Below, one piece after another: positions 51,389 to 56,296 of a stretch of 64,000 bases of DNA; position 1 is the first letter of the stretch, and every line of letters begins with the position of its first letter. Below the pieces are notes generated by a model. The model saw nothing but the letters and a program-made list of their open reading frames with translations, searched no databases and was not told the origin of the DNA. Origin of the DNA: Hyphomicrobiales bacterium (GTDB lineage: Bacteria; Pseudomonadota; Alphaproteobacteria; Rhizobiales; Devosiaceae); assembly GCA_900470445.1 (NCBI GenBank), contig UCAU01000045.1, positions 1 through 64,000 of the forward strand, written 5' to 3'. The translations under genes and the position numbers were made by a program.

Positions 51389-51884
51389 CTGCTCCTCCGT
51401 TGCGGAAGAGCGATCAAGGTTCTCTTAATCGGAAACGCCCGTGGCCTTGCTTCCGATAGCCTCACTGTGCGCCTTGCGGAGGCACATAGCAAATGACTTC
51501 GCAAATCGGTCGGCTCATAGGCCGGACGTATCGATGGGCGTGCACCCGAGTTCGCCTGTCTTGCCTTACAATTAGTTTGTGCCCCGTCTGGCCAAAGCAA
51601 TCCCAGGTGCCGCCCAGCGCGGGGATTTCGGCGTCGGCGTTGCTCCCCGAAAGCTTCGCTGGGTATCGCAGATACATTTTTGGCCAAGAGTGACAGTCTG
51701 GGTTGTGTTCTCGCCCAGTTTCGGCTAGCTGAATAATCAGTCGTATACGTGCGGGTTAGGTGACGAAGTTCGTTCCTCAACCGTTGGGTTCATGTTCGCC
51801 GGTGGTGATCGTGGAGTGAAAAAGAGCCTAGATTGACACCGTGAGTGAGGGATATTCGGTTCCTTGCAATATCGCACACAAGAT
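51389..51884. other. gene-free stretch before tRNA-Arg
   Basis: Nearly 500 bases with no gene-like frame over 75 codons that looks real. The tRNA promoter should be within the last 60 bases. Confidence 0.5.
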
Positions 51885-51961
<77 letters not shown>

Positions 51962-52023
51962 TCCCTTTTTCACCGGATAAAATTTGCCCTAACACCTTGA
52001 AAGGTAAGGCCAAATTTGGTGTT

Positions 52024-52505
52024 CTAATCCTCATTTCGCTGATAGGTCAATGGTCCTGAAAATGCCAGTTTAAGCACGGCTTGACGGCTTTCAACTTGAC
52101 CGGATTCCCAAAGTTTCCAGGGGCTTGCGAGGAACATTAGGGAGTTTCTAAGTGCATCGTCGAAGGTGCGGGCGGGGGCCGGAAGTTGCGAGCTTCTCAG
52201 CGACTGCCAGCTTGTCAGCTTCCAGTTTGCGAAAGCGAGCTTCGTAGGCATTAATAACGCTCACAACGTCGGTCTCAACGATCCGATCAAGTAACTGCGA
52301 TGCCTGGCGCTCGATCTTGATCAGCTCTGCACCCAAGGCAGCCTTCTGTGCCGCGCCTTGCGACAAACGATGCTCCCAAATATCTTTGAACATGAGAGAC
52401 GCGGCCCTGAATAAGGATTCGCTTGGAACAAGCTTCCGCAAGAGTTGATCGAATTTCGTGTGGAGCTTCTCCGCCGGAATGGATTTGCCGTATGGCCCGC
52501 GCCAA
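52024..52505 (-). pseudogene. serine recombinase C-terminal remnant
   Basis: The minus strand reads KLHTKFDQLLRKLVPSESLF, IWEHRLSQGAAQKAALGAEL, IKIERQASQLLDRIVETDVV and YEARFRKLEADKLAVAEKLA, a recombinase coiled-coil. A frameshift near 52185 follows, then RTFDDALRNSLMFLASPWKL and [19 protein letters not shown], the usual end of large serine recombinases. The catalytic resolvase domain and the zinc ribbon are gone. It lies directly next to tRNA-Arg. Confidence 0.75.
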
Positions 52506-53600
52506 CCGCGTGAAGGAGGGCAAGAACAACGGCCTGATCGTCGACTATTGCGGCATCTCGAAAAACCTGGCAAAGCCCTGGCGACGTTGGCCGGGCACAC
52601 AGGTGACGACACGATGGGCGGTCAAGGGGGGCCGGAGACCGATCCTCTGCACCCTGAAGAGAGCTCTTGGAAGAACTCTCCGATGCCATCGAGTTTATCG
52701 GTGAGCAGCTAGAAGACAATGGCTTCGACCTGGCCATCCTTAAAACCGCAATGGGATTTGCGAGAAATAAGGCCTTGGTTGATGCCAGGCGGTCAATGTC
52801 GATGATGAAAGCCGCAAGAAGTTCGAGATATCGGCGCGCTCGGTTTTCAGGAAGTACAAGGCCTGTCTCACCTTCGAAAGCGTGCAGAAACACCGAGCGG
52901 ACAGCGAAGCCATCGCCTTTCTCTATAATACCCTGGAGGAAGACCGCGATAGCGCAGACACCTCTGAGATCATCCAGAAGCTGAACGCCATTGTCAGCGA
53001 AGCTATTGATGTAGCCGCGGACCCAGCGGCAGGCGACAAAATATTCGACATCTCGAAAGTCAACTTCGAGCTGCTCCGTCGGGAGTTTGCCAAGAGCGAA
53101 CAGAAGCACACGGATGTTCAGGACATGAAGACCGTGATCGAGAACAGGCTTCGCAAGATGCTCGCAGAAAATCCGCTTTGCGTCGATTTCCAGGAGCGCT
53201 TCGACGACATCGTCCGTGAATACAACAAGGAAAAAGACAAGAACACGATCGAGGCGACGTTCGAGGCCTTGATGCGGCTCACGGCGGAATGTCAGAGGAA
53301 GAAAAGCGTCACGTTGCAGAGGGACTCGATACCGAAGAGCAATTGGCAGTCTTCGACATGCTACTCAAGCCCGACCTCTCAAAGCCAGAAATTAAGAAGG
53401 TCAAGTCAGTCGCCGTTTCGCTTTTGCAAGAGCTTGAGCGGCAAATGCTCGACGTCCAGGGCATATTTGACAAGACGGCAACACGCGACCGCTTCCGTCA
53501 GTCCATTTACGACTATCTCTATGACGACCGAACTGGCCTGCCTGCCGAGAGCTATAAGCCCCATGACTGGGAGGAAGTATTCATTGCTGGCAAAATTGGA
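52497..53600 (+). pseudogene. hsdR: type I restriction enzyme HsdR remnant
   Basis: Plus-strand pieces in three frames follow HsdR order after the helicase motor: NRVKEGKNNGLIVDYCGISK (52510-52570), LEDNGFDLAIL (about 52707), a charged helical part VSEAIDVAADPAAGDKIFDI and FELLRREFAKSEQKHTDVQD (53000-53130), and TRDRFRQSIYDYLYDDRTGL (53480-53540). The N-terminal nuclease and the motor are missing, as are hsdM and hsdS. It joins the recombinase remnant head to head at 52.5 kb. Confidence 0.75.
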
Positions 53601-53766: not shown

Positions 53767-54822
53767 CTAGCCCCGCGTGTACCAGGTCGCCCTTGCCTTG
53801 CCGTGCCTTTTGATCCGACCGGCCTCGACAAGCTCCCGCAGGCGCACCTTGAGGGTATTGCGGTTGGCCCCGAGCTCTCGCTCGATGGCAGCCGGGGTTA
53901 GTCGCTCATGGGCTTTGAATAGCGCCAGGATTTGCATGGAAAGCTCCGGCAGCGCATCGTCTGCGCTTTCCTGCTCGCGCTCGCGGTCAAGACGCTTCGC
54001 CAGACTGTCCTTTTGTTTCTTGAGGGCGCGCAGGAAAAATCCAAGCCATGGCTCCCAGTCGGGGGCTTCGCCTTTGAGCGTGGTCTGCGTCCGCCTTAAG
54101 GCTTTGTAATAGAGGTCCTTGTTTTCTTCGATTACGCGTTCCAGCGAGGCATAGGGCACATAGACGTAGCCCGCCCGAAGAAGAAGCAAGGTGGTGAGGA
54201 CGCGTGAAAGCCTTCCGTTCCCGTCCTGGAATGGATGGATCGCCAGAAACTGGACGATGAAGACCGCGACGATCAGCAGAGGATGCAGGCTTTCTTCATC
54301 AATCGCTTTACGGGTCCAGGCAACCAGCGCTTCCATATCGCGCGGCGTGTCGAATGGTGTTGCCGTCTCAAATACGACGCCAAGCTCTTTGCCGTCCGCA
54401 TCGAAAGCCACGACGTCATTGCGCAGGGTCTTGTATCCCCCGCGATGCCGCTCATCTTTCACACTGTGACGCAGCAGCGTCTGGTGAAGCTGGAAGATGT
54501 GGTTTTCGGTCAGGCGCAGATCGTCGAAGGCCTGAAAGACAAGGTCCATCGCCTCGGCGTAGCCCGCGACCTCCTGCTCGTCCCGCGTATTGAACGATTG
54601 CATCTTGATGTTGGAGAGAAGCTCTTCGACCTGCGCGTCGGAAAGCTTCGCCCCTTCAATGCGTGTGGATGAGCCCACGCTTTCGACCGTCGCGACTTTG
54701 CGCAGCGCGTCCAGCCGGTCGGGCGAGAGTGTTTTCAGGGCGTCCCACCTCCCCTTAAATTCATCGATTTCAGCGATGAGTTTAACGAGGTCCTGGGTTA
54801 GTATGATCTTGGGCTCCCTCAT
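53767..54822 (-). CDS. Fic-domain AMPylase with N-terminal inhibitory helix
   Basis: 351 residues. The catalytic motif is HPFQDGNGRLSR (about residue 216), matching HPFx[D/E]GNGRxxR, so it should transfer AMP or another nucleotide to a hydroxyl side chain. The inhibitory motif SSTRIEGA lies about residues 51-58, upstream of the Fic core, which makes it a class II, self-inhibited Fic protein. The C-terminus is a winged-helix-like tail (LTPAAIERELGANRNTLKVR). The ATG at 54822 follows a 10-bp triple repeat at 54851-54880. It appears intact while all neighbours on its left are broken. Confidence 0.9.
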   Translation of the reverse strand: MREPKIILTQDLVKLIAEIDEFKGRWDALKTLSPDRLDALRKVATVESVGSSTRIEGAKLSDAQVEELLSNIKMQSFNTRDEQEVAGYAEAMDLVFQAFDDLRLTENHIFQLHQTLLRHSVKDERHRGGYKTLRNDVVAFDADGKELGVVFETATPFDTPRDMEALVAWTRKAIDEESLHPLLIVAVFIVQFLAIHPFQDGNGRLSRVLTTLLLLRAGYVYVPYASLERVIEENKDLYYKALRRTQTTLKGEAPDWEPWLGFFLRALKKQKDSLAKRLDREREQESADDALPELSMQILALFKAHERLTPAAIERELGANRNTLKVRLRELVEAGRIKRHGKARATWYTRG

Positions 54823-54850
54823 GATCGGGTCGCCTGCATATCCAATTCCA

Positions 54851-54880
54851 TACCCGATTATACCCGATTATACCCGATAA
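54851..54880 (-). repeat. three 10-bp tandem repeats before the Fic gene
   Basis: TACCCGATTA repeats perfectly twice and then with one or two changes (TACCCGATAA). On the minus strand this reads GGGTATAATC in tandem, so each unit carries a TATAAT box in phase with the helix turn. It lies about 30-60 bases before the Fic ATG and is probably its promoter/operator. Confidence 0.75.
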
Positions 54881-54942
54881 TGCATCAGCATTTTCAGGGT
54901 CGGTGAAGAGCAGAAATCTGCCAAGACAGACCTGAGAGGCAT

Positions 54943-55305
54943 CCAACCGGCGGACGGTTGGCCGTGGGTTGGAAGGGGGAGCGGCCTCCCCTTGCCCTGT
55001 GGTCCGGCGGCTGCACGCCTGTCAGGGGGGGTTCTTAGGGAGGGGCTGGAACGCCCCGCCTTAAGCGCGATGAAACGGCGGACGTTTCTCCATGGCCCGG
55101 TGCGGGTGGAGAGGTAAATCTCCAGGACCCGCGAGTGGTGAACCGGCGATACGGTTCGATGGTGTGGATGGGGCTCAATGCCCGATCCACACCAAGGCCT
55201 GGGGGATGCAACGGGGGGCGCGCAGCGGTCCCCTTGCCAAGATTGCGGTACTACACCGCACATCGCGAGGAATACCGGATTTGGAAATCCAGAAACTGAC
55301 GTTTC
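54943..55305. ncRNA. candidate structured RNA: array of perfect hairpins
   Basis: There is no gene in these 360 bases, but at least nine perfect short inverted repeats. 54943-54961 CCAACCG-GCGGA-CGGTTGG. 54973-54993 (AAGGGGGAG with CTCCCCTT, one bulge). 55042-55057 GGGGC/GCCCC. 55072-55088 GAAACG-GCGGA-CGTTTC. 55102-55132 (GCGGGT-GGAGA and TCTCC-AGG-ACCCGC). 55140-55157 GAACCG-GCGATA-CGGTTC. 55161-55193 (GGTGTGGAT/ATCCACACC). 55244-55260 TGCGGT/ACCGCA. 55277-55290 and 55292-55305. Two loops are the same, GCGGA. Strand and transcription are not known. It may be a structured RNA or a cluster of palindromes from a mobile element. Confidence 0.35.
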
Positions 55306-55325
55306 ACCTGCCACTCTGCAACAGA

Positions 55326-55347
55326 AAGGGCCCCAATCGGGACCCTT
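55326..55347 (-). terminator. terminator after the CsbD-like gene
   Basis: AAGGG-C-CCC and GGG-A-CCCTT (55326-55347) pair around an AATC loop, five bases after the stop on the minus strand, followed by TTTCT. It also bounds the hairpin array. Confidence 0.65.
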
Positions 55348-55351
55348 CGCA

Positions 55352-55555
55352 TTACCAGGTCTGTCGATCATACCAATCGTCGACGTCCTTTTTCACTTCA
55401 TCCTTGGCCTTGCCGTAGCGTTCCTGGATCTTGCCCTCGAGCTGCTCGCGGTTGCCGTTGATCTCGGTGATGTCGTCGTCGGTGAGCTTGCCCCACTGCT
55501 CCTTCACCTTGCCGGTCATCTGCTTCCAGCTGCCTTCAACGCGGTTCCAGTCCAT
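55352..55555 (-). CDS. CsbD-like stress protein
   Basis: 67 residues from ATG 55555, with AAAGGAG eight bases upstream. It reads MDWNRVEGSWKQMTGKVKEQ, then WGKLTDDDITEINGNREQLE and GKIQERYGKAKDEV, the standard CsbD pattern. CsbD proteins are small, charged and abundant under general stress; their action is unknown. The gene points to the hairpin array. Confidence 0.9.
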   Translation of the reverse strand: MDWNRVEGSWKQMTGKVKEQWGKLTDDDITEINGNREQLEGKIQERYGKAKDEVKKDVDDWYDRQTW

Positions 55556-55657
55556 GACGATCTCCTTTTTCGGTCTTATGGGACAACGGTTCCGGCCCGA
55601 GGACGTTCCAGCTCGGTTCATGTTGAACGCGCAGGCGGGAGAGCCTACTTGAGAGCC

Positions 55658-56296
55658 ATGCCATCAAAACGCAAAGTCGAAGCGCCTCATGCCCTGGTCC
55701 AGGAATGGACGCTGCCGGCCGGGGCGACGTTGGGATCCTCGGTCAGGGCCAAGGGCATTCTGCTCGAAATGCGCGCTCGTCTCCCTTCCGCAGTCAAGAA
55801 ATCGCTCAATGTCACCGGCGTGGTACTGACTCTCCAGATGCCTGAGGGCTTAGAGGGCGAATTCAAGACCGCATCCTCCATCGTTTCGAAGGCGCTGGAA
55901 GGGATCGAGAGCCTGCCGGTGATCCCGCGCGAGATCCAGGACATCCTGTCGATATCGACCACCGAGCGGCATCGCTGGCTCAAGGACGGTCGCCTTCCGA
56001 GCGCTGGCACACGCACGGTCAAACTCCGGGGCCGCGCCAAGAAGATAACCTTTCACGTCTTCGATCCTCGTCGTGTGGAAGAGGTGCTGAACGAGGACAT
56101 GGTCTCGGCATGGCGCGAAGACGATGCGATCGCTAAAGCCGAAAAGCGACGGCAGGCTGCCTGGAACAGAAAACTGGTTCGCGAGGAGAAGTCAGCGACC
56201 AAGGGCAAGCCGGTTGCCGATGGCAGTGCCGAAGACTCCGCGCGTCACCAGCTCAAAGGGTGGGCAGAGTTCGAACGCAGCGGACTGCTTCGCTAA
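55658..56296 (+). CDS. unknown protein with possible HTH region
   Basis: 212 residues from ATG 55658. The middle (EIQDILSISTTERHRWLKDG, RLPSAGTRTVKLRGRAKKIT, FHVFDPRRVEEVLNED) looks like a winged-helix or MerR-like DNA-binding core. The C-terminus is highly charged (KAEKRRQAAWNRKLVREEK). I do not recognise the family. After its TAA the same frame stays open and protein-like to 56617, so it may once have been longer. Confidence 0.6.
   Translation: MPSKRKVEAPHALVQEWTLPAGATLGSSVRAKGILLEMRARLPSAVKKSLNVTGVVLTLQMPEGLEGEFKTASSIVSKALEGIESLPVIPREIQDILSISTTERHRWLKDGRLPSAGTRTVKLRGRAKKITFHVFDPRRVEEVLNEDMVSAWREDDAIAKAEKRRQAAWNRKLVREEKSATKGKPVADGSAEDSARHQLKGWAEFERSGLLR

Follow-up and report, generated by a model that had tools for sequence, protein, structure and literature searches.

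What a tight row of perfect hairpins is for, between a Fic-family and a CsbD-family gene of a Hyphomicrobiales bacterium (Devosiaceae), is the question raised by this locus on contig UCAU01000045.1; the whole stretch of 64,000 nt that was analysed is called the window. An earlier note had proposed a structured RNA. The structure of the interval, its relatives, their gene neighbours and the place of the window copy among them were taken in turn.

Structure of the hairpin array in the window

The tight succession of hairpins was confirmed at 54943-55264. Fold energies of the hairpin interval were -191.7 kcal/mol, z -5.16 (plus strand) and -164.5 kcal/mol, z -5.39 (minus strand), both below 100 of 100 dinucleotide shuffles; the row is real and beyond chance on both strands. 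The array, which is the 5' part of an oriT-like element, occupies 54943-55194 (plus strand; by folding, its last hairpins covarying in relatives). Its main hairpins by folding are 54943-54961 and 55072-55088 (loop GCGGA in both), 54974-54993, 55034-55065, 55102-55132, 55140-55157 (loop GCGATA) and 55160-55194 (a nested stem); the repeated loop, the single GCGATA and the nesting are all present as first described. Hairpin A (55208-55237, plus strand; GCAAcGGGG..CCCCTTGC) follows, found by the exact-module pattern in genomes of the order and covarying in the outer stem of its variants, and then hairpin B (55238-55264, plus strand; inverted repeat TGCGGT..ACCGCA within GAT..ATC), helices 5 and 6 of which covary. 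A and B form the conserved 3' module; the element ends at about 55264, beyond which the flank is unique to each relative.

The 5' neighbour is a Fic-family gene (53767-54822, minus strand; PF02661, E 2.7e-17) transcribed away from the array, as cargo or as a neighbour; the 3' neighbour is a CsbD-family gene (55352-55621, minus strand; PF05532, E 1e-23), not shown as part of the element. Three tandem 10-bp copies of ATACCCGATT/A, possibly an operator, were observed at 54850-54881, just upstream of the Fic gene. An inverted repeat at about 55317-55347, taken earlier for a terminator-like right boundary, lies just beyond the 3' end of CsbD, which is on the minus strand, and the terminator scan did not pick it out; for these two reasons it more likely belongs to CsbD, and the boundary was given up.

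The interval had also been called free of genes. No Pfam family was found for the two interval-crossing frames searched (54868-55371, minus; 55178-56296, plus), and no gene is listed between Fic and CsbD in the incomplete gene table of a Devosia neptuniae plasmid; this much of the claim stands, whereas open frames do run across the interval in the ORF list.

At gathering, Rfam gave only a tRNA elsewhere in the window, nothing for the array, and only tRNAs on 17 related loci, which agrees with the former statement that no standard RNA family fits. A HEARO/omega-type RNA found no covariance-model match at gathering in the window or in these 17 relatives and was set aside. Rfam matches to sX14, PhotoRC-I and a miRNA (E ≤ 10) were far below gathering and were discarded; identity with the DUF3800 motif was considered and dropped, no Rfam match having been found. 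A CsrA-sponge RNA does not fit the loops: GGA is not in most of them, the commonest array loops being GCGATA, GCGAAG, TCAAT, AGGAAC and GCGAAA, with GCGGA found 3 times.

Relatives, covariation and linkage of array and module

The Devosia neptuniae plasmid matched a 600-bp stretch at 99.2% and the surrounding 7.5 kb at 98.0%, so that the window is Devosia-like. Relatives were found by blastn in 9 other genomes out of 61; 7 plasmid records matched, 2 of them only via the Fic gene and 1 via a stretch at the Fic end of the query, and the plasmid search with a related locus (L134) as query gave 9 records. A search of a phage collection gave no match. Common to the relatives is mainly the 3' end with its two hairpins: A reads GCAAcGGG..CCCTTGC, and B is an inverted repeat, often GTTGTA..TACAAC, inside CAAGATG..CATCTTGC; past hairpin B the sequence differs between copies. 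The pattern GGGATGCAACGGGN{6,24}CCCTTGCC was present in 40 of 397 genomes of the order (reversed control pattern: 0) and in at least 117 stretches of a species-wide collection, among which those listed were mostly Alphaproteobacteria by record title, with some from other phyla, many of the latter metagenome bins. The module also occurs in 7 viral-contig stretches (L048-L054), perhaps islands beside, or mistaken for, proviruses. Altogether 158 distinct copies were collected, the module search having fixed GGGATGCAACGGG..CCCTTGCC in its pattern.

The last two array hairpins were aligned together with A and B in 37 sequences chosen for the upstream motif TC[A/G]A[T/C][A/G]CC, so that the constancy of this loop is partly the result of selection. 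Paired cells made up 94.9%, and double changes were found in 18 of 28 pairs; there were 151 compensatory cells, against 48 ± 7 in shuffles and 12-33 with slid structures. The 6 unvarying pairs of hairpin A are so by construction, because the search pattern fixed those letters; in variant copies its outer stem reads GAAAC/CTTTC, GGAAC/CTTCC or TTTAAC/CTTAAA. Homologues with covarying stems, named at the outset as a check, do therefore exist.

Structure lies on the 5' side of the module: the median fold z of 250-nt flanks was -2.5 upstream (n = 157) vs -0.35 downstream (n = 151). In 58 strictly chosen arrays out of 78 the density was 5.9 hairpins per 250 nt (shuffles: 3.2); a few of the 58 (L101, L104, L108) consist of nikA coding sequence that folds. 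GAA is present in 39% of the loops (shuffles: 8.5%), and the consensus of the 140 hexaloops is G-C-G-A-[A/T]-[A/G].

For model R1 only the final two hairpins of the array were used (36 sequences, the window being one of these training rows; it is matched at 55137-55194 with E 1.7e-14, the only match in its genome). At E ≤ 1e-3 the model had 49 matches, spread over 42 of 397 genomes. At E ≤ 1e-5 there were 36, about 10 of which are training sequences: 24 had the exact oriT pattern within 43-162 bp, and of the other 12, none of them a training sequence, 11 were followed by a variant oriT (with CATCTGGC in place of CTTG at L203) and 1 runs off its contig. Of the 13 weaker matches 4 were genuine; the 9 without oriT are the weakest and look like chance. 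Among R1 matches, array and oriT share a strand and are a short, near-fixed distance apart. A second model, R2, which covers the array end together with the oriT, matched 24 of 367 genomes drawn from across the class, the window's own included, in 23 of 270 genera (E ≤ 1e-4). At the relaxase-bearing loci L058, L059, L133 and L158 the hairpins fill the space from nikA to oriT; at L088, L092, L101, L104, L108, L110 and L114, also relaxase-bearing, there is no array and nikA abuts the oriT, and the array is thus dispensable for some such oriTs.

Transfer genes, the nic-like motif and the decayed window copy

Nearest 5' ORFs (n = 139) were NikA-like (10), relaxase (9), MobC (8), N6_Mtase (8) and HsdM_N (7); nearest 3' ORFs (n = 136) included the coupling protein T4SS-DNA_transf (10) and resolvase (7). 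The ORFs were called naively and some are spurious, two clusters being spurious ORFs over the array itself; cluster members were named from one Pfam-checked representative each. The NikA-like cluster has 22 proteins, 16 of them at 200-660 bp on the 5' side and on the opposite strand; the relaxase cluster, 29 proteins at 27 loci, 22 of them at 1-2 kb, likewise 5' and on the opposite strand; the coupling-protein cluster, 31 proteins, 27 on the 3' side; the serine-recombinase cluster, 45 proteins at 40 loci. As a side observation, restriction-modification domains stand among the nearest 5' ORFs (type I methylase or HsdM domains at 7-9 of 139), and ArdC-type antirestriction domains (2) and ankyrin proteins (7) among the nearest 3' ORFs; the neighbours are distributed as if cargo were placed on the trailing side.

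Among the 40 genomes with the pattern, 33 were matched by a relaxase profile built from 15 rows, against 70 of all 397 genomes of the order (odds ratio 41, p 5e-22). With relaxase matches down to about E 1e-97, weaker ones being excluded, 36 of 55 pattern copies share a contig with a relaxase, in 36 of 36 cases within 0.5-32.6 kb; the other 19, the window among them, have no such relaxase on their contig. That orphan oriTs are the general rule was an idea given up once relaxases turned up as far as 33 kb away.

Hairpin B is followed by CTTG[C/T] in 149 distinct copies; the motif is missing in 8 of 158, the window included. In the conserved CACAT-CTTG[C/T] the five bases before the anchor have 0.9-1.9 bits and the positions after it begin with 0.43, 0.09 and 0.15 bits and show a single peak of 0.77 further on, CTTG[C/T] itself being the anchor of the count. 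Weak conservation in the relatives (0.5-0.77 bits; consensus about GTTAA) was also observed at +11, +14 and +15 from the C of CTTG. The nic consensus of MOBP systems is (C/T)ATCCTG(C/T), with an inverted repeat just upstream, in an excerpt of PMC3772185, and nics of the CTTG↓C type (arrow: nick) are listed for other elements in an excerpt of PMC7755788. The motif found here is one base off the quoted consensus, and the inverted repeat 5' of the nic position is hairpin B, with its two covarying helices, present in the window too.

An inverted repeat followed by a nic motif is how an oriT is built, and for this reason the A+B module is read as an oriT, with a presumed nick after CTTG on the plus strand; gene neighbours, relaxase linkage, the repeat and the edge of conservation make the assignment a strong one. 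Hairpin A, which also holds CTTGC, was considered as the nic site and rejected: its outer stem changes on both sides, as in GAAAC/CTTTC and GGAAC/CTTCC, which makes A a hairpin and B, where CTTG is kept in most copies, the nic-bearing part. As in MOBP-type oriTs (RP4, Ti), the site is intergenic, with the inverted repeat right 5' of a short conserved nic-like motif and a NikA/TraJ-type gene and a relaxase on the 5' side and the other strand; the oriT of R64 is of the MOBP type as well. Unlike them, it has CTTG↓C where they have ATCCTG↓C and is preceded on its 5' side by a long row of covarying hairpins, and the window copy is without the nic motif. The reading as an RNA gene, put forward in the earlier note, gives way here: relatives adjoin relaxase and NikA genes and end at a nic-like motif, and the structure is on the presumed transferred strand, which together point to an oriT folding as single-stranded DNA.

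In the window GCGAGG stands after CACATC, and the CTTG↓C motif is missing, as it is in D. neptuniae; the relaxase profile gave no match in the window's genome at E ≤ 1e-15. Two marks of a MOBP oriT, nic motif and relaxase linkage (at this threshold), are thus absent from this copy, while the family has the linkage. A large serine recombinase fragment (51870-52588, minus strand; C-terminal pieces in changing frames by tblastn, best E 8e-38) is the probable integrase of the island. It overlaps a tRNA-Arg (CCG) gene (51885-51961, plus strand; Rfam, and the layout in relatives), which is antisense to the recombinase 3' end and probably the integration site; a site-specific integrase at a tRNA gene is in this form present. 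The recombinase match in the D. neptuniae plasmid starts only at about residue 289, and no second copy of the tRNA region of 13 nt or more, as a flanking att repeat would give, was found within the window. In the window, as at L094, the recombinase is on the other side of the array and on the opposite strand, whereas in 14 of 14 uncut large recombinases of relatives it is downstream of the oriT on the same strand. From this placement and the absence of nic motif and relaxase, the window element is taken to be decayed and perhaps rearranged; with its nic motif lost and its integrase broken, the copy is probably a dead remnant, a relative of working oriTs and not one itself.

In relatives a tRNA gene was found at the recombinase 3' end in 14 of 45 recombinase ORFs, and in 11 of the 14 uncut ORFs of at least 520 aa. 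The recombinase 3' end overlaps or abuts an opposite-strand tRNA (Arg, Ala, Ser, Val) at L061, L065, L122, L125, L132, L144, L149, L151, L154, L157 and L166; with this layout the site of integration itself seems to encode the integrase C-terminus. Integrase at a tRNA gene, oriT and helper dependence recall the integrative and mobilizable elements, including those having an oriT without relaxase, in an excerpt of PMC5704250; the overlap of a large serine recombinase with the tRNA gene sets the present elements apart, the serine-recombinase elements of that excerpt being from Firmicutes. All in all, the interval is likely to be the decayed oriT of an integrative mobilizable element at a tRNA-Arg gene.

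Possible role of the array beside the probable oriT

Strands were compared by folding, the hairpin-coverage test having too strict a cut-off (3 of 155 passed). Of 78 arrays, 70 fold deeper as the plus strand, on which 11.8% of the pairs are G.U, vs 4.4% on the minus strand; z-scores favour the plus strand in only 49 of 78 (Wilcoxon p 0.005), a modest bias. In the 37-sequence alignment G.T and A.C cells number 34 vs 11 (array helices alone: 21 vs 8). The deeper folds and the G.U and G.T excess indicate that the structure is mainly that of the plus strand, the presumed transferred one; a plus-strand RNA would give the same picture.

Gene context, the inverted repeat and the edge of conservation suggest that hairpin B is where, in intact relatives, a NikA-type protein and a MOBP-type relaxase would work, the plus strand being cut at CTTG↓C. 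The part 3' of this nick would then be first into the recipient and the array, 5' of it, last, its hairpins forming once the plus strand is single. The array may serve single-strand initiation, as the zone at which synthesis of the complementary strand starts, comparable to the sso upstream of a rolling-circle nick. In most rolling-circle plasmids, according to an excerpt of PMC4595007, the sso is upstream of the double-strand origin and so does not become single-stranded until the leading strand is nearly complete; it is active in one orientation, and structure can matter more than sequence, a variant that differed in sequence and kept the structure having been functional. Like the single-strand origins (the sso of rolling-circle plasmids and of ICEBs1; ssi), the array would be a cluster of stem-loops on the strand presumed to become single, just upstream of the presumed nick; unlike sso1 of ICEBs1, which is downstream of oriT and has three stem-loops, it has more hairpins with a shared hexaloop. 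Single-strand initiation is preferred because the array, entering last, would sit at the place equivalent to the sso; the assignment is a tentative one, ranked above relaxosome binding, a transcribed RNA and a promoter like Frpo.

The hairpins might instead be double-strand or cruciform sites for relaxosome proteins (NikA-like or other), loading the nickase and not priming. The array does adjoin hairpin B and nikA, and its constant loops suggest recognition by a factor; stems that vary with compensation while loops stay constant fit folded single strands better than duplex, and with the plus-strand bias they make this an unlikely role. To the same degree improbable is that the mobile element transcribes the array, beside the oriT, into a structured RNA acting as a regulator or as partner of an element protein: conserved loops, compensatory stems and plus-strand G.U pairs are what an RNA would be expected to show, but at the four loci where the array fills the gap between a divergent nikA start and the oriT there is little room for a plus-strand promoter outside nikA, a crude sigma-70 scan found no plus-strand promoter in 54700-55700 (those of this group may differ), and the array is tied to the oriT in distance and strand.

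Folded single-stranded DNA near the oriT of the F plasmid, Frpo, is proposed in an excerpt of PMC7690428 to serve priming and early expression, and the 5' gene points away from the array in the window and at nikA-bearing loci, as a single-stranded-DNA promoter would have it. The likeness ends with the side: Frpo is on the leading side in F, the array on the presumed trailing side. The nearest 5' ORF of the 158 copies is on the opposite strand in 83 cases and on the same strand in 62 (naive ORFs, some spurious), no strong bias, and such a promoter is accordingly quite doubtful. That selfish repeated palindromes accumulated beside the oriT and are functionless there is very improbable, since compensatory change with constant loops and co-occurrence with the oriT in fixed order and strand outweigh the repeating modules and the array length varying by locus. 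The mobile palindromes named in the earlier note nevertheless came nearest in spirit, because the array belongs to a mobile element.

Single-strand initiation is thus retained as the preferred role, and the constant loops suggest that some factor reads them. No description of such an array beside an oriT was found in the portions of the open-access literature consulted. It may be, and this is put forward with reserve, that alphaproteobacterial islands carry by their oriT a modular array, its GCGA[A/T][A/G] hexaloops kept by compensation, that works as single-stranded DNA or RNA, and that some trans-acting factor recognises these loops and so converts or manages the strand coming in; such arrays would then be conjugative single-strand origins of a new class. 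A covarying array also makes oriT sites findable in islands in which the relaxase is kilobases away or absent, a number of which lie next to restriction genes. Priming or protection of the transferred strand after conjugation is known for few elements, and the covarying array offers a testable part of it.
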